Shown: positions 35,763 through 63,252 of the stretch, in pieces
Position numbering within the stretch: position 1 is the first letter of the stretch
How the letters are laid out: each line of letters opens with the position of its first letter
Assembly (NCBI GenBank): GCA_900314525.1
Contig: OMVN01000006.1
Span: 1 to 64,000 of the forward strand
Direction of reading: 5' to 3'
Length of the DNA stretch: 64,000 nucleotides
DNA from: an uncultured Eubacteriales bacterium
Lineage (GTDB): Bacteria > Bacillota > Clostridia > Lachnospirales > Lachnospiraceae
Program-made: the position numbers and the translations under genes
The notes under the pieces: generated by a model
Seen by the model: the letters and a program-made list of their open reading frames with translations, nothing else
What the model was told of the DNA's origin: nothing
Databases searched by the model: none

Positions 35763-35827
35763 GCCCCATTAAAATATGCCTTCGGCATGGGGGCGATGCT
35801 ACATGTAAAGTTTTTTCAAAACTTTAC
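35759..35827. repeat. Double palindrome inserted in the Hint coding sequence
   Basis: Two back-to-back inverted repeats. CATCGCCCC/GGGGCGATG (35759-35767, 35790-35798) encloses ATGCC-TTC-GGCAT. GTAAAGTTTT/AAAACTTTAC (35805-35814, 35818-35827) has a 3-nt loop. The second contains the stop codon that ends the RHS ORF. The Hint reading continues on both sides, so this 70-80 nt block looks inserted. It is not flanked by a clear target duplication beyond GTT. Confidence 0.65.
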
Positions 35828-38800
35828 ACAAATTTAACTATTGTGTCGCCTGTAAAGCAATTACAACCAAGTGTTAAAATTCCGATGGCAAGTCTGACTG
35901 TTGCTACTGCAATCTTTTCTGGATCCTTACTTTCTATTGCTTCAATTAATCCAAATGTATCTTGACCTATATTAACTAATTTTAATATAAATGCTGCTGA
36001 TTCTCCAAAAACTGCAGTTACTACACATGAAATCAATGACTGTACAATTAGACCTCTTACAATACACATTGCAACATCAAGAACAGTAGCTTCACCACAG
36101 AATACCATTCGCATTGTTGTAGCAACATCATATGCTGTCACTGCAAGATTTGCAAGTGTAAGCATTTTCTGAAGACTAAATCCAGGTGTAATTATTGTAT
36201 TAATTGTTGCCTGGATTCCCTGTGCAACGCTTGTTTCCATTAACGAGAAATTACCAGTTGGGTCTGTGTACATTACAGGATTTCCATTTGCATATAAATA
36301 TTTATGAAGACTTACCGGATTATCTAATGTTCCTGCGTAAGTATCCATCGTTGTAAATGTACCTGTTTCAGGTGATAAATAACGAGCTCTTAAATAATAC
36401 AAGCCTGTTGATTCATTGTACTGTTCACCTGTGTAGAGATAATCATTGTCTGTATCTCCATTTTTCTTTAATAGTATACCATATGAATCGTATGTATAGG
36501 TATCTGTTATTTTTGAATTTTCTACAAGGGCTGTTACTGAACCATGTCCGTCCTGGATGTAGGTTTTGTGATTATTTACTTCACCTATAATATCAGCACT
36601 TATTAATTCAAGTCCTCTTGTGTAATACTTATTAACTTTGTATGTGTTATCTGTATTCTTTGAAAGTTCTAAGGCAACCTGTGTAAGCCCCCCGTATGTA
36701 TCGTTAAGATAGAATACTTTTTCTTCTTCATTTACCTGCTTGCTTATTCTGTTTCCTTCGAAATCATATGAATAACTTTCTATTGTTACAGAATTTCCAC
36801 TGCTTATTGTTGCAGTTAATAACTTATTTTCTGCATCGTATGTGTATGTCTTATCTTTTGTTCCATGCTCTGATGTAAGATTTCCATTGTCATCATATGT
36901 GTAACTGATTGTGGAAATGTCTGCATCTGTTGTTTCTGGATTTACAAATCCTTCTATTTCAGGAATCTTTGTTGTTTCAGATTTCGTAAGCTGGTTAAGT
37001 TCATTGTAGGTGTAGATTGTATTTCCTTCTTCTACATCTTCTGTGTAATCATTTACATCACCTGTAACCTTAGTTGTTTTTCCTGTTCTGTTGCTTACAT
37101 TATCAAAGGCATATTTATTTTCAATAGTTCCCTGATATGTTAAGGTAGCTGCCTTTAATGTTACATTTTCTGAATCAAGATTTACAACATCTAAAAAGTT
37201 AACATTGTCATTAATGCTAATCTTTTCTTCTGTAAGTCTTAATAGTTCATCATAAGTATATTCGTTAGTGATGATTCTCGCTGTAGTGTTTTCTGAGGAT
37301 TCTCGTGTAATTTCAACTGCTCTTGTTTTTTCTCCTGCCTTGCCATAGCTGTAATCGTAGAACATTAAGACATTTGAATCTTTGTCAGTTACTATTTCAT
37401 TTATAAGTCTTGAACATACATCATATTTATATGAAACTGTAAGTCCACCTTCGTGCTTAACTTTTGTTCTGTTTCCTAAGGAATCATATTCATAAACGGT
37501 TGCTACTCCATTATGATCAATAACTTTTACAAGTCTGTCCATTAAGTCATAGCTGTATGATGTTGCTGCAACATCTTCGCCATTTACATTATATGTAATC
37601 GAACTTATTTTTTCATTGTCTGCATATGTGTACTTAATTGTTCCAAGGTCATATGTTGTCTTTGATGCAAGTCTTCCTAGCTCATCATATGAGTAGCTTA
37701 CATCTCCCTTAGAATCAGTAACTTTACTTAATCTTCCAAGAGAATCATATGTGATATTTACAACACCATCTTTATTAGTTTTCTTAATGAGTCTGCCTAA
37801 GCTGTCGTATGAATATGTCACTTCATTTCCAGCATAGTCAACAAATGAAGTCTGATAACCATTTTTATCATATTTGAATTCTGCTGATTTTCCTGCAGCA
37901 TTTGTTGTTTTTATTAATCTTCCTTCTTCATCATATGTATAACAAGTTGCATTTCCATTTGCGTCTTCTACCTTTGTTAGTTCATATGTTTCATCATATG
38001 TGTATGTATATTTATTACCTAATGCATCTTCCACTGATATTAAGTTATCTGCACCATCATACTCATATTTTGTTGCATTTCCATTTCTATCTATCTCTTT
38101 AGAAATTCTTCCTCGCTTGTCATATTCTGTCTGTTCCTTTGTTCCATCAGGATAGATTTCTGCAACCTGATTGTCATTGTCATCATATTCATATTCAAAT
38201 GTATTACCATTTGCATCCTCAGTCTTAATTAACTGTGAGCGGTTATTGTATGTAAATCTTGTTACATTTCCGTATGCATCTTTTATTGATGTATTTCTAT
38301 TCATATTGTCATATGTGTATTCTGTTACTCCACCTGTGACACTTGTAAATGTTAATACATTTCCATTTGCATCGTATGTATAATTTTCCTTTGTTCCGTC
38401 GGCATATGTTTTACTTGTAAGTCTGTTAAGTACATCATATTCCATGGAAACAGTAATTCCGTATCTGTCAGTTGCTTTGATGTTATTTCCGTTTTTATCA
38501 TATACAAATGTTTCATTTGTTCCATCTGGATATGCCACATATGTTAAGTTATCTTCGCTATCATATGTGTATTCTGTTCTAAGTCCATCTGATGAAATTG
38601 TTGCAGTTACATTATTCTTATAATCATATTCATAGCTTGTAACCATTCCTGTATTGCTAATTTTTGATGTAATATTTCCTGCCTTGTCATATACATATCT
38701 TGATGTATATTCTTTCTTTTCACCATTTTCTGTTCTTGTTACAGTAACACCTGTACATCTGTTTTTCTCATCGTATTCATATGTAGTTGAATTCTGATTG

Positions 38801-41800
38801 CCATCTCCTAATGAAATTAAATTTCCATCCTCATCATACTGAAGTTTTTTGACCATGCCTATTTCATCTGAAATCGAAGAAAGTTTTCCATCTTTTTCAT
38901 ATGTTAAGTCTGTTTTATTTCCAAGGGCATCGCTCATTTCAGTTAAATTTCCCTTCGAATCATAATCCATACTTACTAAAAGCTTGTCATCTACTTTTAT
39001 GCTGTTTACAATATTTAAATCACTGTATTCTAGCGCTTCTTTTGTTCCATCTGCTGCTATAAGAGTTTTAAGATTACCATCATTATCTCTCTCATACTTT
39101 GTAGTATTTCCATTTGCATCTGTTGATTCTACAAGTTCATTATCAGCATCATATTTATTAGTAGTTGCATTTCCAAGCGCATCAATTGTCTTAATCACAT
39201 TTCCATTATCATCATAGTAGAATACTGTCGGATTACCATTTCTATCTCTGACAACTTCCATTTTTGCATCAAGGTCGTGCTCATACTCTATTCTATTTCC
39301 GTTAGAATCTACAGTTGCTTTTAGTCTGCCATTTTCATCATATTCATTTCTTGCAACTGGCTTTCCTGATGGATCAAGAATTTCTACAAGATTATGATCA
39401 TTGTCGTATGAGTAAATAATATTTCTTCCTGCATAGTCAGTTGTTAATACAAGATCACCATTGTCATCATAACCGTATTTTATAGAATTAATTATATTAT
39501 TTTTGCTGTCTGTTTCAGTTGCACTAATTACTCTGCCTTTGTTATCTCTTGTAAATTTGATTCCATATCCATCTGAATGTGTGAATCCATTTTTACTGTA
39601 ACTTACTGTATTTCCATTAGAATCTTCTCCCTTTGTTATTCCCTTATCCGGTGAAAGATACATCTTTGTTCCATCTTCCGTGGTAAGAATAAAGTTCTGG
39701 CTCGCTAACAGGTCTGTATCTTCAAATATAAGAGTATTTCCTTCTAATAAAGCTGTATTATCTCCATCTATAGTCAGTTTTTTTGTTTTATCTGTATCAC
39801 ATACAAAATTCACCTCTACCGTACTTACTGGAATAAATACACTTCTCTCTGGACTTAACTTAAGACTGAATTTATCACTTGTTCCATCTCCATAAGTTAC
39901 TGTGATATCATGATTTATAGTCTGTTCAATGTAATATGTTGTTGATAGTCTGTTACCCAGCTGTACTTGATTATAACCTTCATGTAATGGATTACTAAGT
40001 GTCAGTTTTACACTCTGCATTCCAAGACTCCATCCATAACCAAAATCACCAGATGATTTATTTCTGCTGTCATAATTTCTGTTTACCTGCAATGGGATGC
40101 CTGCAACATTTGAACTAATGTCTGTAAATCCTAAAGACATATTTCCTACTTTAAGATTTCCTACTACATTAACTGTTCTTTCTGTCGTAGTTCTGTTTCC
40201 ACCATTATCAACTGCAATAAGTCTTAATGTATAACTTCCATTCATAAGCATTGTAGTGTCAAGTTCACCTAGCTTTCCATTTTCAATGCTTTCATATCCT
40301 TTTGCTATCTCTTTATAATCATCTGTGCCATTTAATTTATATTCTAAAGTATAGTAGGCGAGACCTGTTTCATCTTTGACCGTACCAATAATATCTGTTT
40401 TAGCTTTTACATCAACGTCTGATTGAGGTGAAATAAAATCCGCTGTTGGATATGCTTCATCACTTCTATCAAAGAATCTAATCTTTTTTGTAACTGATTT
40501 TAAATCTCCATCCACTATTGCTGTAAATGTGATATTAGCAATGCCTGCATCATTTTTTGTAACGGATACTTTTTTGTCATCTAATATTACATCTGCTTCA
40601 CCTGAAGTTACGCTGATATCTTTTGCATTTTTAGGGTATGCGATATAACCAGTTACCGTATCTCCTACATCTGCAACAGTATTTTGGAATACAAGTGCCA
40701 GTTCTTTGTTATCTGCCTCACCATTATTTATTGTACCATCTTCATTGACTGTAAATGTGTAAATTGTAGTTCTTGTGTTCCCTGACTCATCGTTTGCAGT
40801 TACCTCAACTACATAATCTCCTGTGCTGTATTCTGTAAATTCATATGTGGCAATATCCGCATTATCTACGTTTGCACTACCAGTAGTAATAATTACTTTG
40901 TCACTACTACCTTTTCTTCCTGTTGTTATCTTATACTCTTTTAAATGTTCATCTGTAATTGAACCTGTAAGTTTGATTTTTAAAATTTTATTTTCAATTG
41001 CTGCATCCAAATCAGCAAAAATATCAGGTGCTGTTTTATCTTCATTCTCATCAACCTGACCTGCCTTATACGTGAACTCAGCTTTTGAGATGCTTGTATT
41101 TTCTGCCGAGTCTTTTGCTGATAATTCTACTTCATAAGTTCCATCAGATAAATTTTCTAAATTAATATTTCCAAGTTCGGCAGAATCTTCATTTTCATTG
41201 CCTTTTGCAATAATAATCTTTACTGATTCATTTGATTTATTAAAATAGGTCAATGTGTATTCTGAAAGCTTTGTTTCATCTGATACAGAACCTATCACCG
41301 TTAACGTATTTCTATCATTATCAATTGCTATATTTTCAATTGCTGTAACTGGTGGAATACTGTCAGTTTCTTCTTTACTCACTGTAATAGTAAGACTTTC
41401 TTCTGAAGTTAATCCCGCCTCATCTTCTGCTGTGATTTTGTAGCAATAAACACCTTCTTCAAGTTCATCTGTATTAATCACACCAATAAATCCATCTTTA
41501 ATAGCTTCTATGCCTTCAGTAATGAGAACTTCTTTGTTGTCATCCTCACCTGATTTTGTTCTTGTCACTTTATAACTCTTTAGTTTTCTATCATCTGTAA
41601 TCGAACCTTTGATTTCCACAACTCCAGATATTTTACCATCTTTTGGTGATGTAATATTAATTTGAGGTGGTGTTATGTCTCTGTTATCTATTACCGTTAT
41701 TGTCTTGTATTGTGTTGTTACATTTCCTGCAATATCTGTAGCTACAACAGATATCGTTATAGTCCCAGGCTCTGATGGTGTGAGTTCATATCTGTCATAA

Positions 41801-44073
41801 CCATCTCCAATTAGCTGGTCGTTACACTTAATTTGAAAATTTGCTACTCCGTAATTATCCTTTGCAAAACCTTCAACATATACGGTTTCACCAAGCTTAA
41901 TTTCACTTTTACTTACATTTAATGTCACTACTGGAGCTTCTTTATCATCAGGCTTGGTATATACTCTTGCATCATCTGTATTTATGCTGATAACTGCTGG
42001 TCTGCTATATGTTCCCTCTAAATCTTTTACGACATATTTAACAAGATAGGTTTTCCCCATATGTACCTCAGCTGGAAATCTTCCTTCCGTCCATTCTGTG
42101 TCACTTATCTCCTTGTAATAAAAATATTCCTCCCTGATTCCTTTTCTCTCATCCTGTGGATGGTCAGAATCATATGCAGAATATGTTACATTTGCAATAC
42201 ATCTGTTAGAATCCTTATTTGACTGCATTATATCAGACCTAATCTCAGCGACTGGCCTTGTCTGTGCAACAATAAGTTTTTCCACTTCATCTGTATCTGA
42301 CCATTTGGCATATCCTGCCAATGCAGAATTACCTTTTGTAGGATTGTCACTGATTCTATGAGTTATTGCATAGGCTCCTACATTTTCAAACATTGTCATT
42401 GGTTCAGACTGTACAATATTTTTTATTTCTCCACTGTTATCGAACAATGATGGATCATATGTATATATCCATTCATCAGATCCTTTGTCATCATTTTCAA
42501 GATCACTGTATGTGCCAATGTAATCAAGCTTTTCATCTGTGGTAACTGTTGCTTCTATTGAATAATTCTTTTCCAGAATATCCGTTTGGATACTTGAAAT
42601 AATATGATTCACAGCCTCTGTGACAAGCTTATCCTGTAATATTTTACTGTCTTTATCTACTGAAATATTTGTATTCTCACCATTATTCTCTATTATGTTT
42701 AATAAGTTATTATATGAACTTATGGACGTGTCATTCCCAATCCCATAGAATTTAACGTCTTTTGACATTAATGCAGAAGCTACATCAGCACTTCTTTTAT
42801 TATCGGATAATTCTGGAATTACTGCATCACTTAAGTTGATAACATAATGGTTAGTTCCAGGTGTCCACACATGATTCTTGACAACATCAGAGAGACTCTC
42901 CCCTGTAATATTCTGCATTACAATATTTTTAAATGTGAAATATGACTGCTGTTCACAACAATGCCATTCGTGACTTATTATTGGTCCATATCCATAAGCA
43001 TCTACTCCATCATCTGGAAGAACATACTGGTTAATAATAATCTTATCACCGTCATATACAGTAATTACATTGCCTTCTATAATTATCTTAAAATGGTGAT
43101 TTGCATACACATTAGAAATATCAAATGTCTGAAGTAAATTTCCTGCATTCTGAACATATTCATATGAACCATTTCTAAAATTGTTTAAATCTGTTTTATT
43201 TATTTTAATCAATTTAAGACCGTATACAGTAACTAAAATGCAATATCCCTGAATATAGTTTTCTTCTTCGGAAACAACTGTATTAAACAGGAACCCGCCA
43301 CCTTCCATACTGTGCCAGTCTGTATTATCTCTCTGAAGATCAAAGTCAAAGACTTTTCTTGTAGCATCAGAATCTTCAACATATAAAAAATCTTTTAGTG
43401 GATAACAAGAATATCCTAACATTTTTATATCCTTACCATCGTACACAATGTGCTTAGGCAATGTAGGAAGATAGTTATCATCATAGTTATAATGGTCATA
43501 TTCCTTCCATGCAAATGTGTCTGTTGCTGTCAATGCCGAAGTACTAACAGTTGTAACATTGGCATCAATACCTTTTTCCTTTAGCTTGTCAGAAACCAGT
43601 TTACTTGCCTCTGAATAAGCATTCATTACATCTTTATCAGCGCTTCCCACTGTAAAAATAATATCTGCATTTTTACTTTTTTCTACAGTCACCTTTGAAT
43701 TTGGTGCCTGGTTTGTGATCTCAAATATTTTTTCTGTACTTCCTGATAAATAAAATGAATCATCAATTAATTCAGGAATTGTATCTGTAAATGTTTCTTT
43801 TACATCAAGTATAATTTTATATTTACCTACATTTTCTAATGCATAATTAATCGAGTTTCCGTCTCCATCTCTTTCGTCGATAACTTCTGCATCATCATAC
43901 GTTCCATCATTGTTTGAATCATAAAATAATTTATAGTGCCTTGAAATAATTTCATCACCAATTTCAGCCATTGATTCATCACTAACAGTAATATTTGTCT
44001 TTCCACTGCTGTTTCTTATAAATATATCCTTAGTATCTGTATTTTCCCCTTCGCCTGCTGAAAGATTTATCAC
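35824..44073 (-). pseudogene. Giant Ig/RHS (YD-repeat) surface protein, main part, interrupted at both ends
   Basis: A 2749-residue ORF. It contains several bacterial Ig-like domains (about 690-1300, with repeated TPPQINITSP, DTAPDIFADL-like borders), an RHS N-terminal region (about 1330-1530) and YD repeats (about 1530-2550, dozens of YDxxGN motifs). The RHS core LYYLRARYLSPETG (near 2557) and the start of a Hint domain, CFTGDTIV, follow before a premature stop. Upstream, its frame stays open past the listed ATG to about 44265, where it meets the signal-peptide ORF in another frame. The intact gene would encode about 3,100 aa. RHS proteins usually form a shell delivering a C-terminal toxin; here the toxin is gone. 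It may still be made as a truncated surface protein. Confidence 0.85.
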
Positions 44074-44233: not shown

Positions 44234-45226
44234 TTATTTGATCCTGTAATAACATTTCCTTTCCATTTTAATATCTACGCCATAAACATTAAGTATATGC
44301 CTTCTAGGTGCATAAGGACATACATATCCATTATCATCCCAGCCCTTAACCTTTGCACAGTTGTTACCCTGTTTATAATCACTGTATCTTAATAAAACTG
44401 ATTCATTCCAGAGATTATCATCATCACCTCTGAAGAATCTAAGTTCTGTTGCTCCCTCATCTTCTTTGGTTACAACATATCTAAACACTTCTGTTTCAGG
44501 TGAATCCGATAATTTAATTGGTGACAGAACATCTTTATTAGTTGTACTGATTTTTATATCTTTTCCACCATTGTTCGATTTTGAATATTCCTTAAAGTTA
44601 ATATAAAACTGTGCATTTGATTGCTCCCAATTATATATAACATTGTTATCTTTATTTTCTGTAAATTCATAGAAATCAAGATATACCACGTCACCTTCAT
44701 GGAAGTAGTCATAATCTATAACCATATTCCCATCCCAGTATCCGTGTTCTGGAACTGTAACATGATATGTTCTATGCCATGTACTGTAATCATCACGATT
44801 ACCTCCTCGACCACCTGCACTCCATGAATTCCACTGAATATAATTGTCTGACTTATTGCTTTTTAAGCCATTTCCGACCTGTGTCATATCACATACTGCT
44901 TTACCGTCTTTTGTCTTAGGACTTAATCTGTTAAATGTTACATTATAAGTCTTTGCAGGAACTCTGCAACTCCAGGTATTATCATCCACCTGTTTCATAA
45001 TGTAATAGTCATGTCCATCTGTGTTGTCAACCAGCTGAATAATAGCTCCATCATTGCCAATCCAGCTTTCCTTTGTGTCATCTTTAAAATAGATTGTTGT
45101 ATAACCCTCGGGTACACTTGCATAAGCCCTTTTTGCTCTTTCTATCGTAATAGTAGTACTAATTGTTGTAATCACTAAAACAACAGATAATATGCGTTTA
45201 AACAACCTGTTTTTGAAAAAATTCAT
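44234..45226 (-). pseudogene. 5' part of the RHS surface protein gene (signal peptide), frameshifted
   Basis: A 330-aa ORF with a signal peptide (residues 1-36, ending AYA) and aromatic, Gly-rich beta domains (WIGNDGAIIQL, NNVIYNWEQSNAQFY) that look like carbohydrate-binding or cell-surface modules. The last 12 residues are out of frame. The true continuation (KGNVITGSNNVCLFDNN) is one base away and runs into the giant ORF. The shift lies at an A4 run, 44266-44269; removing one A restores one protein. The start has GAGGAGAC upstream. Either a real mutation, a sequencing error, or, less likely, a programmed +1 shift. Confidence 0.8.
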
Positions 45227-48888: not shown

Positions 48889-48940
48889 ATTATAAACCCT
48901 CATGTTTCATTTTGCAATTTTAGTTTCACTGAATTATAAT
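48889..48940. promoter_or_regulatory. Divergent promoters of pepF and the GNAT gene sharing one -35 box
   Basis: The palindrome TTGCAA (48912-48917) serves both directions. On the plus strand it is followed by 17 nt and TATAAT (48935-48940). On the minus strand it is followed by 17 nt and TATAAT (48889-48894). RNA polymerase cannot occupy both at once. Confidence 0.75.
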
Positions 48941-52716: not shown

Positions 52717-52746
52717 AAAAAGAGAAGTCGTATTACGACTTCTCTT
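52717..52746 (-). terminator. Terminator of the CBM26 protein gene
   Basis: AAGAGAAGTCGTA (52720-52732) pairs with TACGACTTCTCTT (52734-52746); TTTT follows on the minus strand. Confidence 0.85.
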
Positions 52747-52773: not shown

Positions 52774-53649
52774 TTAAGCGTTAACTTTCTTTTTAGAAGC
52801 TACTACTGCGATAGCTGCGATTGCTGCAAGTGCAAGTGTAGAAACTGCTACTGCATCACCAGTCTTAGGTGAGTTTGTATTAGATTTAACTCCTGTACCA
52901 GCTGCTGCTGTTGTTCCTGCTGCTGTTGTTCCTGCTGCTGTTGTTCCTGCTGGAGTTGTTGTTCCTGCTGCTGGATCTTCGTAGTGCGGATTTAAGTGGT
53001 GCAAACCTGTTGTTCCTGCTGGAGTTGTTGTTCCTGCTGCTGGATCTGCTGTTCCATCTGCTGCTGGAGCTGCTGATGAAGGGTAGTTAGCTGGAGGTGT
53101 TGTTGTAACCATATCGCTCTTTCCGATAACGATTAAGCTTCCTGATTCATTTCCATCATAGTTGATATAGTAATCAGAAGCTGCTTCTGATCCTTTCTTA
53201 ATCATGATGTTAGGTGTCTGATGTTTTCCATTAGAATCTGTAGTGATTCCAGCTGCCTGAATCTTAGCGATATCAGCATCTGATGTTGTATCTGTTGCAA
53301 CGCTATCACCAACATAGTTGTTGAAGATCATCATTGATCCCTTGCTGAAGTCTGTGTATGTACATGTTACTTTGTACCAGTCATTTCCTTCTGCTTCCAT
53401 TGTAGCACCTGGCCAGATTGGCTCATGAGGAGCTGTTCCGTCTATTGTGTCTTTAAGTACACATTTGTCAAGTGGAAGACAATCATCTTTCCAATCGATA
53501 CTCTGTTTTACCCAAGCGCCAACTTTATCCCATTTGCTTGCGTTATAGAAATGATATGTAACTGTTGTATCAGCGAATGCTGAAACACCCATAGCTAATG
53601 TCATAGCTGTTGTTGCTGAAACTGCAAAAATTTTCTGTAATTTTCTCAT
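52774..53649 (-). CDS. Sortase-anchored starch-binding protein (CBM26-like)
   Basis: A 291-aa secreted protein. A signal peptide (about 1-26, ending SAFA) is followed by a starch-binding module of the CBM26 type (about 28-110). Its pattern is VTYHFYNASKWDKVGAWV, then WPGATM, then WYKV and MMIFNNY, with the aromatic residues that stack on alpha-glucans. A Pro/Ala/Thr linker follows, then NSPKTG, a hydrophobic helix and KKK, a sortase signal with an LPXTG variant. The start at 53649 (MRKLQK) sits 10 nt after GGAG. The linker contains a DNA duplication with an odd insert (see findings). It has no catalytic domain, so its role is capture, not hydrolysis. Confidence 0.85.
   Translation of the reverse strand: MRKLQKIFAVSATTAMTLAMGVSAFADTTVTYHFYNASKWDKVGAWVKQSIDWKDDCLPLDKCVLKDTIDGTAPHEPIWPGATMEAEGNDWYKVTCTYTDFSKGSMMIFNNYVGDSVATDTTSDADIAKIQAAGITTDSNGKHQTPNIMIKKGSEAASDYYINYDGNESGSLIVIGKSDMVTTTPPANYPSSAAPAADGTADPAAGTTTPAGTTGLHHLNPHYEDPAAGTTTPAGTTAAGTTAAGTTAAAGTGVKSNTNSPKTGDAVAVSTLALAAIAAIAVVASKKKVNA
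52915..53048. repeat. Direct repeat in the linker-coding region
   Basis: About 40 bp of GTTGTTCCTGCTGG-type sequence recurs near 52940-52980 and 53010-53048. The two copies are separated by about 30 bp of unrelated composition encoding GLHHLNPHYE. Shorter GTTGTTCCTGCTGCT units flank the left copy. Confidence 0.7.
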
Positions 53650-53713
53650 TTTATTCATTCTCCTTTTATATTTGGTTTTTGTAAAAGTGTACACACTCTT
53701 ACCGATTGGTTTA

Positions 53714-53742
53714 ATTATATAACATCACAGTATAATTTGCAA
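53714..53742 (-). promoter_or_regulatory. Promoter of the CBM26 protein gene (TTGCAW class)
   Basis: TTGCAA (53737-53742), 17-nt spacer ending TGATGTTA, TATAAT (53714-53719). Confidence 0.8.
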
Positions 53743-53817
53743 TACCTTTTTAATATTATTTTATTTAATATTTGCACAATGTCCAAATATTAATAGTATT
53801 TTTTATGCAATATTAAC

Positions 53818-53853
53818 AAAAAAACTGACAGATTGTTAATCAACCTGCCAGTT
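53818..53853 (-). terminator. Terminator of the first paralogue gene
   Basis: AACTGACAG (53823-53831) pairs with CTGCCAGTT (53845-53853) with one mismatch; a T run follows on the minus strand. Confidence 0.75.
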
Positions 53854-53870
53854 AATAATATTTCTAATTA

Positions 53871-54740
53871 TTAGTTAGATTTTTTGCTTTTAGAAACAAC
53901 TACAGCGATTACTGCGATAACAACTACAGCTACAACTACTAATACGATTGGCATTGTGTTATTGCTATCTTTCTTGTCATCTTTGTTATCTTTCTTTGCT
54001 TCTGTTGTTTTCTCATCTGCTTTTGTTTCTTTTTTATCATCTGAAACCTTTGCATCATCTGATGAACCACCAGCTAAAGCTGTTATTTTCTCTCCGCCTT
54101 CTAATTCAAGACACTGATTAACGAATTCTAAGTATGCTTTGTCATCAAAGTAAACTGTACTCTCTTCATATCCATCACCAACGATAGCTTTCTTAGAAAG
54201 TGCTACGAAATTCCATGACTCTTCATCTTTTGAATGATATCTTACATTTAATTCAACGTTCTTCTTATTCTGGATAAGACAAACAAAACCTTTTGTTGGG
54301 TTCATGTATACTTTATATTCTGCTGGCTGTAAGTCACCTACAACTTTGAACTGTGACTGGTTATCTGCCCATGCTGATTCTGGAATACCAAGACACATCT
54401 GATAGTTCCATGCAAACTCCTGTCCATCTGCAAGTACTTTGAACTGTCTGCTGAGTTCCATTGGATCTTTCTTAGGATCTTCATTTGGTGTCTGATCTGA
54501 TGGTAATGCATATGTGCTTGTGAATGAATATAAATCATCCTGTCCATCAACTGCTGTAAAGTTCTGTGTATCTAATGTTGTAACCCAACCAATCTTGTCA
54601 TTTCCCTGATCTGCATCTCCGAAAAGATTTGGATTACCTACAAACTGATAAAAATCAGCTGCGAATGCTGAAACGCTCATTGCTGCTGCCATAGAAACAG
54701 CTGCTGCTACTGTAGCAACTTTTTTAATTACTTTTTTCAT
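53871..54740 (-). CDS. Secreted surface protein, membrane-anchored paralogue
   Basis: A 289-aa protein. It has a signal peptide (about 1-26, SAFAA), an ectodomain of about 205 residues beginning DFYQFVGNPNLFGDADQG, an Asp/Lys linker (about 225-258) and a C-terminal membrane helix (VLVVVAVVVIAVIAVVV) with KSKKSN, lacking any sortase motif. The ectodomain is almost the same as that of the next gene, with few substitutions. It is beta-rich (FKVLADG, AWNYQMCLGIP, VELNVRYHSKDEESWNFV) and may be a carbohydrate-binding fold, but I cannot assign a family. Own promoter and terminator. Confidence 0.75.
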   Translation of the reverse strand: MKKVIKKVATVAAAVSMAAAMSVSAFAADFYQFVGNPNLFGDADQGNDKIGWVTTLDTQNFTAVDGQDDLYSFTSTYALPSDQTPNEDPKKDPMELSRQFKVLADGQEFAWNYQMCLGIPESAWADNQSQFKVVGDLQPAEYKVYMNPTKGFVCLIQNKKNVELNVRYHSKDEESWNFVALSKKAIVGDGYEESTVYFDDKAYLEFVNQCLELEGGEKITALAGGSSDDAKVSDDKKETKADEKTTEAKKDNKDDKKDSNNTMPIVLVVVAVVVIAVIAVVVSKSKKSN

Positions 54741-54794
54741 TATTAAATTTTCTCCTTTCAAATTGTTGCAAATTCTGCAACTAACTACTTGCCT

Positions 54795-54823
54795 ATTATA
54801 TATCATCAGATAGTTTTATGCAA
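54795..54823 (-). promoter_or_regulatory. Promoter of the first paralogue (TTGCAW class)
   Basis: TTGCAT (54818-54823), 17-nt spacer ending GATGATA, TATAAT (54795-54800). Confidence 0.8.
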
Positions 54824-54856
54824 TATAAAATTGCCAATGTTTTGTATAAAATGCAT

Positions 54857-54885
54857 AAAAAACGGGGGAATGTTTTCACATTCCC
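54857..54885 (-). terminator. Terminator of the second paralogue gene
   Basis: GGGAATG (54866-54872) pairs with CATTCCC (54879-54885); T6 follows on the minus strand. Confidence 0.75.
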
Positions 54886-54915
54886 ACAAAAATTGACTAA
54901 TTATGTCAAACTATA

Positions 54916-55773
54916 TTAAGCTTCTTTTCTTTTTGCTGCTACTGTAACTGCTACTGCTGCAGCTAATACTGCTAACATAGCAACTGGAGCAACATCACCA
55001 GTCTTAGGTGAGTTTGTATTAGACTTAACTCCTGTACCTGCTGTTGTAGCTGGCTGTGTCTCTACTGGAGCTGCTGTTGTAGCTGCCTCTGTTACTGCTG
55101 GAGCTGCTGTTGCTGCTGGAGCTGCTGCACTTCCAAGACCTAAACATTTGTCAACAAATGCTTTATATTCATCATCTTTGAAGTAAACTGAGCTATCTGC
55201 ATAACCATCACCAATAATTGCTTTTCTTGTTAATGCTACAAAGTTCCAAGATTCTTCGTCTTTTGAATGATATCTTACATTTAATTCTACACTCTTGTTG
55301 TTCTGTATAATACATACAAAACCTTTCTTAGGATCCATGTATACTTTGAATTCACCTGGCTGGAAATCTCCAACTACTTTAAACTGTGACTGGTTATCTG
55401 CCCATGCAGATTCTGGAATACCAAGGCACATCTGATAGTTCCATGCAAAATCCTGTCCATCTGCAAGTACCTTAAACTGTGTACTTAAGTTCATTGGATC
55501 TTTCTTAGGATCCTCGTTAGGAGTCTGATCAGAAGGAAGGGCATATGTACTTGTATAAACATATAAATCATCCTGACCATCTACTGCTGTAAAATTCTGT
55601 GTATCAACTGTTGGAACCCATCCAATCTTATCATTTCCCTGGTCAGCGTCACCAAAAAGGTTTGGGTTACCTACGAACTGATAAAAGTCAGCTGCAAATG
55701 CTGACACACTCATAGCTGCAGTCATTGAAGCAGCTAAAGCTACTGTTGCAATCTTCTTTACTAATTTTCTCAT
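54916..55773 (-). CDS. Secreted surface protein, sortase-anchored paralogue
   Basis: A 285-aa protein. The signal peptide and ectodomain are near-identical to the previous gene (both share ADNQSQFKVVGD, VELNVRYHSKDEESW, QTPNEDPKKDP). The C-terminus differs: an Ala/Pro/Thr linker, then the same GTGVKSNTNSPKTG sortase region as the CBM26 protein, a hydrophobic helix and KRKEA. The same ectodomain is thus presented either on the membrane or attached to the wall. Start at 55773 (MRKLVKK) behind GGAG with an 11-nt spacer. Function unknown; the neighbours (CBM26 protein, amylase) point to starch binding. Confidence 0.75.
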   Translation of the reverse strand: MRKLVKKIATVALAASMTAAMSVSAFAADFYQFVGNPNLFGDADQGNDKIGWVPTVDTQNFTAVDGQDDLYVYTSTYALPSDQTPNEDPKKDPMNLSTQFKVLADGQDFAWNYQMCLGIPESAWADNQSQFKVVGDFQPGEFKVYMDPKKGFVCIIQNNKSVELNVRYHSKDEESWNFVALTRKAIIGDGYADSSVYFKDDEYKAFVDKCLGLGSAAAPAATAAPAVTEAATTAAPVETQPATTAGTGVKSNTNSPKTGDVAPVAMLAVLAAAVAVTVAAKRKEA

Positions 55774-55828
55774 TTTTCTTTTTTCTCCTTTCATACTCAT
55801 TGCTTTCGCAACTCTCCGTTTGATAATA

Positions 55829-55857
55829 ATTATATATCACTTATTACCAATATGCAA
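55829..55857 (-). promoter_or_regulatory. Promoter of the second paralogue (TTGCAW class)
   Basis: TTGCAT (55852-55857), 17-nt spacer ending GTGATA, TATAAT (55829-55834). The rest of the 55,860-55,999 gap holds nothing I can support. Confidence 0.8.
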
Positions 55858-55999
55858 CCAGATTTTTACAATTTTATGTACGTAATATACAATAGACTAC
55901 TTCTAAAATCATGTAATCTCTTCTAGTGTGGTCTCATATATCTTTTGATTGATGTCCACTGAGTTGAATATTATTTTCCATTTTACTCATTCTACATAT

Positions 56000-56031
56000 A
56001 AAAAAGGGAAATGCATAATGCATTTCCCTTT
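56000..56031 (-). terminator. Terminator of the fourth surface gene
   Basis: AAAGGGAAATGCAT (56003-56016) pairs with ATGCATTTCCCTTT (56018-56031); T-rich sequence follows. Confidence 0.85.
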
Positions 56032-56059
56032 AAGTATCTTATTTAGATTCAGTTTCTAA

Positions 56060-57061
56060 TTAAGCTTCTTTTTTCTTAGCTGCTACTGTAACTACTGCTA
56101 CTGCTGCTACTAAAACTGCGAATAAAGCAACTGGTGCAACATCACCTGTCTTTGTTGACTGGTTAGCTGCTGTTGTAGCTGTTGCAGCCTTAGCTGCTGG
56201 AGCTGCTGTTGTTGCTGCTGGAGCTGCTGTTGTTGCTGCTGGAGCTGCTACTGTTGTCTCTTCTGCTGCAGCTGCTGTTGTTTCATCTGCTACTGTTGTT
56301 GTCTCTTCTGCAACTGTTGTCTCTTCTGTTGTAGGCTCAACATATTTTCCGTCGATCTTATCGCTAAGAGCTGAGTTGATTGCTGCAAAATCAGGAATTG
56401 CTGTAATTCCTAATGCTTCAACATCACCTTTTCTATCTGTTTCATTAAGACCTGCTACGAAATCATCTAATGACATAGCTGATAATTCTTCTAATGAGTA
56501 ATATGTTTCATTATCGTCATTTGTAATCCATCCAACTTTATAAGGAATATCATTGTTATCTTTATCACGGATAACTACTGCGTTTGTTGTGCTATCAAAG
56601 TATACTGTAACAGGTGTCTCTTCAGCTGTTTCTACTCTGATGTTTGTTAAACATGTTTTTCCTAAGCTTTCTAATACGTTCTTCTTTGTTGCTGCTGTGT
56701 CACCAAGAACGATTCTCTGCCAAGCAACGTTTGCTCCATCAACTTCGTCGTCATTTGCATATGCACAGATTGCAAATCTTGAAGCCCACTGGCTTTCTTC
56801 ATCATATGCTGGCATTGTGATATCCATAGAATAAACACCTGCGATGTCATTTCCATTAACATCTTTTGCCTGCTGCATAACATTTGCATCATCCATTGAT
56901 TCCCAACTTGGATCTGTCATGTTTCCTGTAAGTGTGTAAACAAATGTTCCAGCTGGAATTGAAGCTGTGTCAAGATCAGCTGCGAAAGCTGTTGTTCCAA
57001 GACCCATTACCATTGTTGCAGCGAGCATAGCAGCTGCCATTTTTTTAATAGATTTTCTCAT
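56060..57061 (-). CDS. Sortase-anchored surface protein with Ala/Thr-rich stalk
   Basis: A 333-aa secreted protein. It has a signal peptide (about 1-27, TAFAA) and a beta-rich domain (about 30-180: FVYTLTGNMTDPSWESMDD, then YSMDITMPAYDEESQWASRF). A short helical domain (about 185-240) and a low-complexity stalk of ETTV, AAPAATT repeats (about 242-300) follow, then QSTKTG, a hydrophobic helix and KKKEA. STKTG is a sortase signal variant. Unrelated in ectodomain to the two paralogues. The start at 57061 (MRKSIKK) follows AAAGGGTGG. Unknown function; likely part of the same surface layer. Confidence 0.75.
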   Translation of the reverse strand: MRKSIKKMAAAMLAATMVMGLGTTAFAADLDTASIPAGTFVYTLTGNMTDPSWESMDDANVMQQAKDVNGNDIAGVYSMDITMPAYDEESQWASRFAICAYANDDEVDGANVAWQRIVLGDTAATKKNVLESLGKTCLTNIRVETAEETPVTVYFDSTTNAVVIRDKDNNDIPYKVGWITNDDNETYYSLEELSAMSLDDFVAGLNETDRKGDVEALGITAIPDFAAINSALSDKIDGKYVEPTTEETTVAEETTTVADETTAAAAEETTVAAPAATTAAPAATTAAPAAKAATATTAANQSTKTGDVAPVALFAVLVAAVAVVTVAAKKKEA

Positions 57062-57125
57062 AATAAAATCCACCCTTTCTTTTTTCTCTTTTCTTTTTGT
57101 TTTTGACATTCTAGTCAGTAAACTT

Positions 57126-57154
57126 ATTATATATTAATCACTATTATATTGCAA
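57126..57154 (-). promoter_or_regulatory. Promoter of the fourth surface gene (TTGCAW class)
   Basis: TTGCAA (57149-57154), 17-nt spacer ending TGATTAATA, TATAAT (57126-57131). Confidence 0.8.
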
Positions 57155-57316
57155 GAAGTTTTTGTGATATTTTTTAATTTCTATTAACATAATGTTCATT
57201 TTTTATGCAATTTTACCTTTATTTGATAAATTTTCCATAAATTATCTACTGATTTTGTTAAGATTTTCATTTATACTAGCATTTTTAATGACTTATTCTA
57301 CATTTTAAATATTCCT

Positions 57317-57348
57317 AAAAAATGCCGGCAGTATTATCCCTGCCGGCA
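57317..57348 (-). terminator. Terminator of the amylase gene
   Basis: TGCCGGCAG (57323-57331) pairs with CTGCCGGCA (57340-57348); T6 follows on the minus strand. Confidence 0.9.
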
Positions 57349-57361
57349 AAGTTTTCTATAA

Positions 57362-59080
57362 TTATTTTAATATTACAATAGCATTTGGAGGAAGCACAAT
57401 AGTGTCATCTACCTGATATGGTTCCTCTTCTGTTACGCTTAACTCACCCTGAATACATGTATATCCATTTTCAGTTCTTGATAATTTAACCTGCTTTGTC
57501 TCATCATTGTTGCAGTTTGCAAGTATTATTATCTTACTTCCATTATATGTTTTAGAAACTGACATGATGTCCTCATCACCAGTCTCAATCTCTGCAAGCT
57601 GTCCTCTGGCAATTTCAGGGAAAATGTTTCTAAGTTTAAGTGCCTGTTTAACATATGAAAGAACTGAATTCTTGTCCTTTTCCTGGTTATCTACGGCCTC
57701 AAAACTGTTTATTACATAATCCTTAGTCATATTGACAGGACCTCTTGTCTGTCCTTTTGTATCTTTAGCTGACCAAATCATTGGTGAACGTTTATTCTCA
57801 TCTGCTCCTGAACCACCAAGTCCTATTTCATCTCCGTAATATATGAACGATGCACCATTTATCATCATCTGAAGTCCCTGTGCAAATTTGATTCTGTTTT
57901 CTTTATATGCAAGGTATGCTGCTGGTCTGTCAATATCATGGTTGCTTAAAAATGATGCCTGTATAGCGTTTGGATTTGCTGCCTGCACCTCATTCTGTGA
58001 CTGAACTAGACAATCTGCAAAATATTTTCCGTTATATGCAGGATCTGTTCCATGAGTAATATGTGATAATTCTCCATCCGATCCTGAATAGCTAAAATCA
58101 AAAGCACTGTCTATTCCACTTGTGAGATATGTTGCATAATCAGAAGTCCATGTTTCTGCAACTATATATGCGTTTGGATTTACGCTCTTTACATAATTAT
58201 TGAACCATGTAAGCACTTCAACATTTTTCTGTGTTTCTCCAGAGAAATATTCTTTTGCAGCATCAAGTCTGAATCCATCAACACCCATATCCAGCCAGTA
58301 TTTTGAAATCTGCTCAAATTCTGCCCTTACATCTGGATTTGCAAGATTAAGATCTGGCATCTGCTGTGAGAACTGTCCAAGATAGTAATATGGTGTTGAT
58401 CCCACTGGGTAATAAATGCTTCCCTTCTTTTCTTTTGTAAATGTGTAATAATCTACATATTTACAATCTGCAGGATTTGGTTCCTGGTCTGCAGGGAGAC
58501 TCTGTAAATACTGTTTTGCCTGTTTAAACCATTCATTTGCTATAGATGAATGATTCATTACAAGATCCATTATTACTGTAATTCCACGTTTGTGGCATTC
58601 ATTAATTAAATTTTTGAAATCATCTAATGTTCCATATGCCTTATCAATTTCGCGATAATCTAATACATCATATTTGTGATATGATGGCGAAGGATTTACT
58701 GGCATAAACCAAATTGCATTACAACCTAAATCAGTATCTGTTTCTGGATTTCCATCATTAATGTAGTCCAGTTTCTGTATAACTCCGTTAATATCCCCCA
58801 TTCCATCCCCGTCGCTGTCATAAAATGAACCGACAAAAATTTCATAAACATTTCTGTTATTGTCTTCAATAACATTTAATTTTGTCTGAAGCTGTGGTTT
58901 AACTTCTGTTCCCTCAACTTCAAGTTTTCTGGTTGTCTCAGCTTCTTTAGCTGACTCAGTCTGAGCTTTTCCACCACTAGTTTTCTTGTTTGACTTGCCA
59001 CATCCTGTAAATACAGATACAGAAAGTGTTAACGCCAGGGCAAATGCTGCCGACTTTTTAACGAATTGATTTCTTCTCAC
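57362..59080 (-). CDS. Alpha-amylase family (GH13) lipoprotein
   Basis: A 572-aa extracellular lipoprotein. The signal peptide ends in lipobox VFTGC (Cys27), so it should be lipid-anchored outside the membrane. The GH13 regions are present: DLVMNHSS (172-179), GFRLDAA with nucleophile Asp273, VAETW with acid/base Glu309, and NHDID with Asp382. A calcium-type loop, DSDGDGMGD, lies near 89-97, and a C-terminal beta domain closes the protein. It probably hydrolyses alpha-1,4-glucans (starch, maltodextrins) bound by the sortase-anchored proteins encoded downstream. The start is GTG at 59080 behind AGGAG. It follows the BI-1 gene by 20 bp, so it may be co-transcribed with it. Confidence 0.95.
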   Translation of the reverse strand: MRRNQFVKKSAAFALALTLSVSVFTGCGKSNKKTSGGKAQTESAKEAETTRKLEVEGTEVKPQLQTKLNVIEDNNRNVYEIFVGSFYDSDGDGMGDINGVIQKLDYINDGNPETDTDLGCNAIWFMPVNPSPSYHKYDVLDYREIDKAYGTLDDFKNLINECHKRGITVIMDLVMNHSSIANEWFKQAKQYLQSLPADQEPNPADCKYVDYYTFTKEKKGSIYYPVGSTPYYYLGQFSQQMPDLNLANPDVRAEFEQISKYWLDMGVDGFRLDAAKEYFSGETQKNVEVLTWFNNYVKSVNPNAYIVAETWTSDYATYLTSGIDSAFDFSYSGSDGELSHITHGTDPAYNGKYFADCLVQSQNEVQAANPNAIQASFLSNHDIDRPAAYLAYKENRIKFAQGLQMMINGASFIYYGDEIGLGGSGADENKRSPMIWSAKDTKGQTRGPVNMTKDYVINSFEAVDNQEKDKNSVLSYVKQALKLRNIFPEIARGQLAEIETGDEDIMSVSKTYNGSKIIILANCNNDETKQVKLSRTENGYTCIQGELSVTEEEPYQVDDTIVLPPNAIVILK

Positions 59081-59100: not shown

Positions 59101-59916
59101 TTATTTTCTTTTTCCCATGATTGCAAGTAATCTGATAAATATATTAATAAAATCAAGATATAACTGCATTCCTGAGTATAAAGCTAAAACATTAATGTCG
59201 CTTTCTGATGCTGTATTGGCATATACCTTTACTTTCTGTGCATCATAAGCTGTAAGACCTACAAATATAAATACTACTATATAATTGATTGCCATATCCA
59301 TTCCTGTATATCCAAAAATACCAGCAAATATAGATACGATTATTACTCCAATAAGTGCCATTGAAAGCAGTGAGCCAAGGCTTGTTAAATCCTTTTTAGT
59401 AACTGCACCGATACCAGCCATAACTCCAAATAAAATAGCGGTTGTTAAAAACACTTGCTGAATTGAACTGAGATCAAAAGCATAAAAAATCACTGACATT
59501 GTAACACCATTCATAATGGTATATGCAAGGTACATTACTGCTGCGGCTGCTACATTTTTCTTTCCGATGAAGTATGAAGCACCAATTGCCACAAGTACTT
59601 CAATTATAATTAGTGGCTTAAACGCATAATTTAACATTGAGTAGAATGTTGCTGCATCCATAGCTGTTGCAGTTGCTGCAAATGCTGTGATAAGAAGTGA
59701 AACAAGCATTACAATATATGATCTTGTTATTATTTTTGACTTTATCTCATCTCTGTTCGTTGCTGTTTCAAATGAATTTACCTGGTCATAATATGTATTG
59801 CCATTCTGAGGATATCCGTTTGGCTGATATCCATTCTGCTGATATCCATTCTGCTGATATCCATTATCATATGAATGATATCCGTTGTCGTTGTTGTTTC
59901 CATAATAATTTTCCAT
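59101..59916 (-). CDS. Bax inhibitor-1 (YccA/YetJ-like) membrane protein
   Basis: A 271-aa protein with a hydrophilic Asn/Tyr/Gln/Gly-rich N-terminus (residues 1-45, tandem NGYQQ units) followed by seven helices. The family signature region is near AYDAQKVKVYA. Bacterial homologues conduct or leak calcium in a pH-dependent way. The N-terminal repeat is coded by 15-bp DNA repeats (about 59810-59872). Upstream is the palindrome at 59958-59971. Confidence 0.88.
   Translation of the reverse strand: MENYYGNNNDNGYHSYDNGYQQNGYQQNGYQPNGYPQNGNTYYDQVNSFETATNRDEIKSKIITRSYIVMLVSLLITAFAATATAMDAATFYSMLNYAFKPLIIIEVLVAIGASYFIGKKNVAAAAVMYLAYTIMNGVTMSVIFYAFDLSSIQQVFLTTAILFGVMAGIGAVTKKDLTSLGSLLSMALIGVIIVSIFAGIFGYTGMDMAINYIVVFIFVGLTAYDAQKVKVYANTASESDINVLALYSGMQLYLDFINIFIRLLAIMGKRK
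59810..59872. repeat. 15-bp tandem repeat coding the NGYQQ units
   Basis: The unit CTGATATCCATTCTG and close variants occur about four times on the plus strand, coding Asn-Gly-Tyr-Gln/Pro-Gln/Asn on the minus strand. Such repeats change copy number readily by slippage. Confidence 0.65.
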
Positions 59917-62039: not shown

Positions 62040-63252
62040 TTATTTGTTATGGTTAACATTTTTTAAGTAAATGATTAACAATACAATTGCCTTAAATATA
62101 TTATCAGCAATCATACAATACCATACAGCACTAAGTGACATATGCCATACCTGTGTACACAGAAATGTACTGAATATTCTAATACCCCACATACTAAATG
62201 TTTCCACATAGAATATCTCCTTAGTTTTACCCATACCGTAATATATTCCTTCTAGCGCTATCATGAGCCCAAAAAAAGGTTCTGTAAAAGCTACCAGTTT
62301 TAATACAGATGACCCTGTTTGTGCCACTCTTATACTATTAGTAAATATCCGCATCAGAGGATACGAAACGAAGTACAAAATAATTCCATTGATAATCATC
62401 ATCAATACTGTAATTAATATACAGAGTTTTTCTGTGACAATTGTTTTCTTCCTATCTTTTTCTCCTATTGCATTACCTATTAGAGATGAGGATGCAGTTC
62501 TCAATCCATAACCTGGTATGTAAAACAATATTTTCCAAAGCCGGAATCGTAATCTTCATACATTTTGAAAGAATTCTCTTATCTGGCCTTATTGTCCCTA
62601 TATTAAATTTAAGTCTGTCATCCCTGAACGAGAATGCAAACATAAGAACTCCGCCTATCAGATAAGATATTGCAGATGCAATTGCTGCACCCTTTACTCC
62701 CAGTCCTGCACCATAAATAAATACTGTATTTAAAATTATATTTAATAAATTAGATAAAAGATTTATCCTCATAGGGGTTCTGGTATTCTTAATTGCCCTC
62801 AGTGCTGAACCATAAATAATTGTAAATGACCTGAAAAGCATAACTGTACTTATTATAAGAAAATACTCAGACGCGTCTTTTCTAATATCTTTTGCAGCAT
62901 TCATCCAAACCGGAATAAAAGGACTTAACGCCACGCACAAGATAGTCATAATAATTCCACAGATTATGGTAACAATAAATGCGTTTGCAGATAACTTTGA
63001 CGTATTTTCATAATTCTTAGACCCGGATTCCTTTGCCATTAATGCAAGTATGGCTATTCCAAACGCATAGGGTACACTGTTAACAAGCCAGGTTATTGTT
63101 GTTGTAGTGGACACAGCAGCTGTGGCATTTTCACCTAAATGTCCCACCATTGCCGTATCCACATACTGGAGAAGCGTACTCATTACATGTTCTATGATTG
63201 TTGGTATTGAAAGGAATATTAGTGATTTTAAAATATTTCTTTTATAACTCAT
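62040..63252 (-). pseudogene. MATE-family efflux pump, broken by an internal deletion and frameshift
   Basis: The first ORF (from 63252) has the MATE N-terminal half: IPTIIEHVMSTLLQYVDTAMVGHLG, six helices, and DKRILSKCMKITIPALENIV. It then goes out of frame near 62528. The second frame continues at FYIPGYGLRTASSSLIGNAIG, the conserved segment that normally follows some 40 residues later, and runs to 62040. About 100-130 nt appear lost at the junction, which is why the two ORFs cannot be joined by a single-base change. The remaining parts give about 420 aa versus the usual 450. The start has AAAGGAG. Function is lost unless the sequence is wrong here. Confidence 0.85.

Follow-up and report, generated by a model that had tools for sequence, protein, structure and literature searches.

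The DNA analysed here, hereafter called the window, is a stretch of 64,000 nucleotides (nt) at positions 1 to 64,000 of contig OMVN01000006.1 from an uncultured Lachnospiraceae bacterium (assembly GCA_900314525.1; genome G000, 2.36 Mb in 72 contigs, with the window on contig C42). It carries a block of genes for four small surface proteins and a GH13 alpha-amylase-family lipoprotein, which an earlier sequence-only reading had interpreted as a possible starch-capture surface layer. All five genes are present where that reading had placed them, and they, like every block feature given below, lie on the minus strand. In minus-strand order the block encodes a Bax1-I family membrane protein, the GH13 lipoprotein, and the surface proteins T, X_B, X_A, and C26, with proA upstream and a diacylglycerol kinase-like gene and rpoD downstream, the last three named by eye from their translations. 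None of the five genes encodes a transporter, as had been noted, and none is SusC/SusD-like. The block is real and conserved. No published account of this locus was found in literature searches, which were made mostly without subscription papers.

The C26 protein (52774..53649; a GTG start at 53694 is less likely) is predicted to consist of a signal peptide, a divergent CBM26-like domain with an insertion (53113..53571, alignment A11), a linker, and an SPKTGD sorting-like motif. X_B (54916..55773; an upstream start at 55800 is possible) has a signal peptide, an X25-like unit (55243..55686, assigned by profile comparison and unit alignment), a linker, and again SPKTGD. X_A (53871..54740) has an ectodomain 90% identical to that of X_B, in keeping with the two paralogues already recognised in the sequence-only reading, with its X25-like unit at 54210..54653 assigned in the same way, and ends in a plain C-terminal transmembrane anchor with a basic tail. 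T (56060..57061) comprises a signal peptide, one X25-like unit in which both platform tryptophans are present (56510..56944, alignment A9), a Thr/Ala-rich linker, and an STKTGD sorting-like motif.

The units of the X and T proteins belong to one domain family. A profile of 13 X units matched a profile of 15 T units at 99.4% in hhalign (E 2.7e-21, a value that, as with all hhalign E-values here, refers to a single pair and not to a database), so that T, which had been taken for a third, unrelated anchored protein, is of the same family as the paralogues. BLAST comparisons of X and T relatives, in which the two X sequences of the window took no part, also join the two groups directly, down to 1.6e-16, with some short matches that cover signal peptides only. 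In the resulting 28-unit alignment, the first platform tryptophan is present in all units, and the second position is Trp in 26 and Tyr in 2. Five X25 domains that had passed the Pfam cut-off when their own proteins or genomes were scanned served as a reference. Against them, the combined X/T units scored 96.7% (E 3.3e-10) across 93 columns, in an alignment that pairs both tryptophans, and the T units taken alone gave 95.6% over 92 columns; CBM26 scored 2.1% against X, and X25 scored 1.7% against C26 and 1.3% against CBM26. At E <= 1, Pfam X25 was matched by one of the 13 X members and by two of the 11 T members, and one fused relative has a sub-threshold CBM20 match over a unit (20.6 bits, cut-off 23.3). 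We call the unit X25-like rather than a member of X25 because no X25 match lies above the curated cut-off (PF22058, 27 bits). Collectively, these comparisons suggest that the X/T unit is most likely a divergent X25 starch-binding module. A PDB sequence search with the 52774 and 54916 proteins and profiles A4, A6, and A9 gave no relevant match.

The CBM26-like domain that had been proposed for the 52774 protein is borne out by Pfam (PF16738, 28.4 bits against a curated cut-off of 28.1). A match to CBM26 at E <= 1 was obtained for all 11 members of the C26 family that were scanned, the best at 3.1e-9. The family (12 sequences) also aligned with nine CBM26-type domains from its own genome, of which seven exceed the Pfam cut-off and two fall short of it, at 96.3% (E 2e-9) over 71 of 86 columns. 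The insertion inside the domain, which lies within this alignment, accounts for the short Pfam match of C26. In an alignment read by the authors, two platform positions are Trp in all 12 family sequences, and one canonical CBM26 Tyr position is Gly when C26 is aligned with the domains of its own genome. The platform positions were assigned after residues Y60 and W72 of Sas20d1, which form the platform of that Ruminococcus bromii domain; according to PMC9112005, Y60 is replaced by Trp in the wall-anchored homologue RBR_09240. Judged by these profile comparisons, the 52774 protein is a divergent CBM26.

Sortase anchoring had been claimed for the surface proteins, and the sequences fit the claim in part. 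Sorting-like motifs are seen by eye in three of the four, SPKTGD in the 52774 and 54916 proteins and STKTGD in the 56060 protein; the NPXTG model scored 18.3 and 16.5 bits for the first two (cut-off 23.5) and the srtB_target model 13.8 bits for the third (cut-off 18.15), all below threshold. The genome has eight sortase matches, all above cut-off. No sorting motif is found in the 53871 protein, whose C-terminus is a transmembrane stretch followed by SKSKKSN and thus a plain membrane anchor. Both types of ending recur among 14 X proteins, four of which (the window X_B and those of G008, G009, and G001) end in a sorting-like motif and ten in a membrane stretch, as judged from the C-termini by eye. 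Three genomes have two X copies, and there the ectodomains are 90, 80, and 86% identical within a pair and 49-57% identical between genomes. Sequence identity of the sorting-like tails is 58-69% from genome to genome and 20-33% when each is set against the tail of the other copy in its genome. This pattern would fit homogenisation of the ectodomains with both anchor types retained; repeated duplication would fit it as well.

The GH13 lipoprotein (57362..59080, 572 residues) agrees with its earlier description as an amylase lipoprotein. Its catalytic domain was recognised by Pfam (Alpha-amylase, 2.7e-75, 254.7 bits), and its best solved relative is 7jjn_A (E 2.2e-126), which we take to be Eubacterium rectale Amy13B; we presume that the subfamily is GH13_36. 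The Asp/Glu/Asp motifs GFRLD, VAE, and NHD are all seen by eye, as is the lipobox-like sequence SVFTGC. The protein is probably a membrane-tethered enzyme that trims maltooligosaccharides. Its gene starts 20 nt past the end of the Bax1-I gene (59101..59916, Pfam Bax1-I 3.5e-39), which is probably the first gene of the GH13 transcript; the GH13 gene is probably the second, because of this 20-nt gap and of the absence of the promoter type described next.

A pattern search found TTGCAA-N17-TATAAT upstream of T (57126..57154) and C26 (53714..53742), and TTGCAT-N17-TATAAT upstream of X_B (55829..55857) and X_A (54795..54823), so that TTGCAW-N17-TATAAT sits 83-93 nt upstream of all four surface start codons. 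A hairpin-plus-T scan, which listed 17 terminator-like sites in the region where 2.9 would be expected, placed one after GH13 (57323..57348), T (56003..56031), X_B (54866..54885), and X_A (53823..53853); after C26, a perfect 12-bp inverted repeat with a short T tract (52720..52746), absent from the scan list and read from the sequence, is a possible terminator. The view of the surface genes as single-gene units is thus upheld. The 5′ leaders of the X_A and X_B genes (54740-54823 and 55773-55857) also contain small inverted repeats, seen by eye, that possibly stabilise the mRNA.

The region shows no enrichment of sigma-70-like sites in general (32 observed, 25.2 expected, standard deviation 4.7). 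The window has six TTGCAW-N17-TATAAT sites where 0.24 would be expected, and four of them precede surface genes, an enrichment that is post hoc because the pattern was chosen from the four upstream regions; genome-wide there are 24 sites, and the reversed control gave 0. A divergent pair of such sites lies at 48889-48940 between pepF-like and GNAT-like genes. Recurrence in relatives is the independent part of the promoter evidence. When the pattern was loosened slightly, it was found ahead of 32 of 42 surface genes from 12 genomes (28 of 38 if the window is left aside), and ahead of none of the 9 GH13 genes, the 11 kinase genes, or the 3 others; relaxing it further adds four surface genes and two kinase genes. 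Judging by the shared promoter, the four surface genes may be expressed to a similar and perhaps high level, with the amylase not included. Co-regulation with the amylase, to which the sequence-only reading had looked, is therefore unsupported. A starch-specific regulon run through the shared promoter was considered and rejected, as no link to starch is apparent in the genes that follow most of the other sites in the genome (first open reading frames (ORFs) judged by eye; one site has no ORF).

Conservation was followed in a set of 13 genomes, ten of the same genus plus G023, G402, and G189, and in wider sets of relatives. The X family is found at full length in 9 of the 10 genus genomes and in G023 of another genus. 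C26 occurs in 11 of 145 relatives, namely the ten genus members, with G004 having it in fused proteins only, and G023. The GH13 protein is found in 31 of the 145 at E <= 1e-80, including the ten genus members and G023. The order T-X-C26-kinase-rpoD is kept in G002, G003, G005, G006, G007, and G009; G002 and G003 have one more gene, between T and X, which looks by eye like an L,D-transpeptidase gene (L050:7547-9523 in G002, L002:8365-9831 in G003). In G008, T is on a separate contig, after GH13; in G001 the contig stops past C26. The order is T-C-T-C-X in G023 and G402. A reversed membrane-protein ORF with an ectodomain resembling, by eye, a binding protein lies between GH13 and the surface genes at L002:6127-6882, L053:7481-8302, L058:4744-5601, L105:12549-13310, and L115:14559-15335, and is absent from the window, L054, and L057.

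Across 348 genomes of the family, the unit profile found matches in eight at E <= 0.01, four strong (two genera) and four weak, and the weak matches in G189 and G404 are X25 proteins. The G189 locus, from another genus, may bridge the X25-like units and X25 itself. Its block has GH13, a reversed ORF, a 585-residue anchored protein with weak C26-profile matches, a 221-residue anchored protein with an X25 domain of 55.1 bits, a peptidase, a kinase, and rpoD, with two other ORFs interspersed; all names except X25 were given by eye. G026 and G404 each encode a small X25 protein that has an anchor-like tail and adjoins a large lipoprotein-like ORF.

Fusions of the unit with C26 were found in four ORFs, with three units and C26 in L095, two and two in L096, one unit and C26 in L051, and five units and C26 in L098. 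Eight proteins of relatives that were scanned with Pfam bear choline-binding, ChW, LRR, or dockerin modules. As far as these predicted proteins go, the unit and C26 domains travel together and with surface anchors. In G004 and G009, a dockerin follows C26 (L051:3689-5548, L096:197-4954, and L101:3797-4738, with units also present in L051 and L096), and these relatives may assemble the binders via dockerin and cohesin.

Other parts of a starch pathway lie outside the block. Five other proteins of the genome (five of the six scanned) join GH13 to CBM26. These amylases, on contigs C62, C67, and C43, have the CBM26 fold in common with C26, but theirs is fused to GH13 catalytic domains, whereas C26 has it alone, with an insertion and an anchor. 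The genome further encodes a solute-binding protein with 27% identity to another such protein encoded next to a distant GH13 homologue; two ORFs that look by eye like permeases come after it. In the more distant genomes G083 and G033, the GH13 homologue lies beside transporter-like genes, as judged by eye, and not beside binders.

Elsewhere in the window, and apart from the block, a 2749-residue RHS-repeat protein with PKD and Ig-like domains by Pfam (35824-44073) adjoins a 330-residue protein with no Pfam match (44234-45226). Two overlapping ORFs in different frames (62473-63252 and 62040-62528, together spanning 62040-63252) resemble by eye the halves of a MATE-type membrane protein.

Three known systems resemble the block in part. 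SusE and SusF of Bacteroides thetaiotaomicron, together with SusG, likewise place non-enzymatic surface binders beside a surface amylase, and SusE and SusF contain X25 modules, according to PMC9112005, the family that the X/T units resemble most. The block differs in having one unit per protein, single-gene transcripts, and Gram-positive wall and membrane anchors. The sequence-only reading had drawn an analogy of logic with this system; since the then unassigned ectodomain resembles X25, the analogy may reach the module itself. In R. bromii, Sas20, the X25 of Sca5, and RBR_09240, a predicted sortase-anchored CBM26-like protein (PMC9112005), are also non-catalytic X25 or CBM26-like surface modules, and RBR_09240 shares with the C26 family a Trp in place of the platform Tyr. 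The window differs from R. bromii in its lack of a dockerin or cohesin match, its single rather than tandem X25-like units, and its amylase neighbour. The pathway of E. rectale likewise combines a GH13 lipoprotein (7jjn_A being the closest to that of the window), separate CBM26 amylases, and an importer. According to PMC8288039, Amy13B acts on smaller products without binding larger substrates, the products enter via ATP-binding cassette (ABC) transporters, and starch binding is described on the amylase Amy13K itself; the window block adds stand-alone binders.

Taken together, the data favour, at a probability of about 0.68, a reading of the block as a SusE/F-like layer for the capture of alpha-glucan (starch or maltodextrin) on a Gram-positive surface. 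Four small non-catalytic proteins would be secreted, three with one X25-type module and one with a CBM26-type module. Three of them would probably be fixed to the wall by sortase, and X_A would be fixed to the membrane, so that near-identical X modules would stand at two heights. The surface modules would keep starch, or chains released from it, at the cell; large secreted amylases with CBM26, whose genes lie elsewhere, would make the first cuts, the GH13 lipoprotein at the membrane would trim maltooligosaccharides and finish the work of the larger amylases, and an ABC importer encoded elsewhere would take up the products. We infer the starch binding, the localisation, the division of labour, the import route, and the coupling to the amylase. 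Compared with the starch-capture proposal of the sequence-only reading, this account is strengthened by the X25 likeness and by the conservation of the block, whereas the relatedness of the third protein, the mixed anchoring, and the unsupported amylase co-regulation depart from it. A bolder version, less likely than not, is put forward tentatively: the X/T unit would be a new X25-derived starch-binding family centred on two related genera, the block would be a Gram-positive counterpart of SusE/F plus SusG, and near-identical domains would be kept both membrane- and wall-anchored by repeated homogenisation of the ectodomains, the anchors staying different.

Several results weigh against the capture layer. 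Concerning the domains, X alone aligns more weakly with X25 (90.0% over 44 columns), the X25 scores of the relatives (23.1, 24.7, and 15.5 bits) are all under the cut-off, Pfam X25 has no match in the three X/T proteins of the window or in the rest of the genome, and the hhalign E-values are those of single pairs. AlphaFold2 models of X/T units, a check that the sequence-only reading had proposed, were too poor to tell for or against the fold, with mean predicted local distance difference test scores of 67.2 and 58.5 and no significant fold match. The CBM26 score of C26 is marginal and its match partial, covering profile positions 27-60 of 70. Concerning the enzymes, the GH13 gene lacks the promoter shared by the surface genes, it lies away from them in 3 of 13 genomes, and a GH13 domain was found in none of the eight scanned proteins of relatives, so that the units are not seen on a starch enzyme.

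The results on the enzyme give some room, though an unlikely one, to the alternative that the modules do bind alpha-glucan but that the amylase and the surface proteins are neighbours only, the binders serving general adhesion to granules or glycogen-rich particles. The GH13 gene, probably riding with Bax1-I, has the shared promoter in 0 of 9 cases, it is on another contig or at another place in G001, G002, and G005, and in relatives the modules also occur outside the locus, on proteins with choline-binding, LRR, ChW, or dockerin domains. Against this alternative, in 9 of the 13 genomes, drawn from three genera, a distance of 210-2302 bp separates GH13 from the nearest surface gene; G004 is counted neither among these nine nor among the three just named. 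The results on the domains lend themselves to a second alternative, which we consider rather improbable, namely that the four are abundant structural or adhesive surface proteins in which a carbohydrate-binding fold is kept for another ligand, for instance a polysaccharide of the cell itself or a glycan of the host. Their divergence and marginal Pfam scores would agree with it, as would the strong-looking promoters and terminators if these mean high expression, but the aromatic platform positions are kept in nearly all units, and neighbours and fusion partners point to alpha-glucans. Membership of a cohesin-dockerin amylosome as in R. bromii, to which the dockerins behind C26 or unit domains in G004 and G009 and cohesin-like matches in 12 of 13 genomes searched (10 above cut-off) would lend some colour, is highly improbable here and was rejected, since this genome is the sole one of those searched without a cohesin match (E 0.001; 72 contigs) and the five proteins carry no Pfam dockerin at E <= 1 (0 of 5), those at the surface ending in sorting-like or membrane anchors. 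Binding of host amylase, as by the streptococcal adhesin AbpA, was set aside because the modules look starch-binding.

The capture of starch by Gram-positive gut bacteria has mostly been described in terms of modules fused to amylases or of amylosomes. If the capture-layer reading is true, a conserved group of stand-alone, singly anchored binders beside a membrane amylase would constitute a third layout, and the X/T units would add a candidate carbohydrate-binding family. The small set of proteins is directly testable for binding to starch granules.

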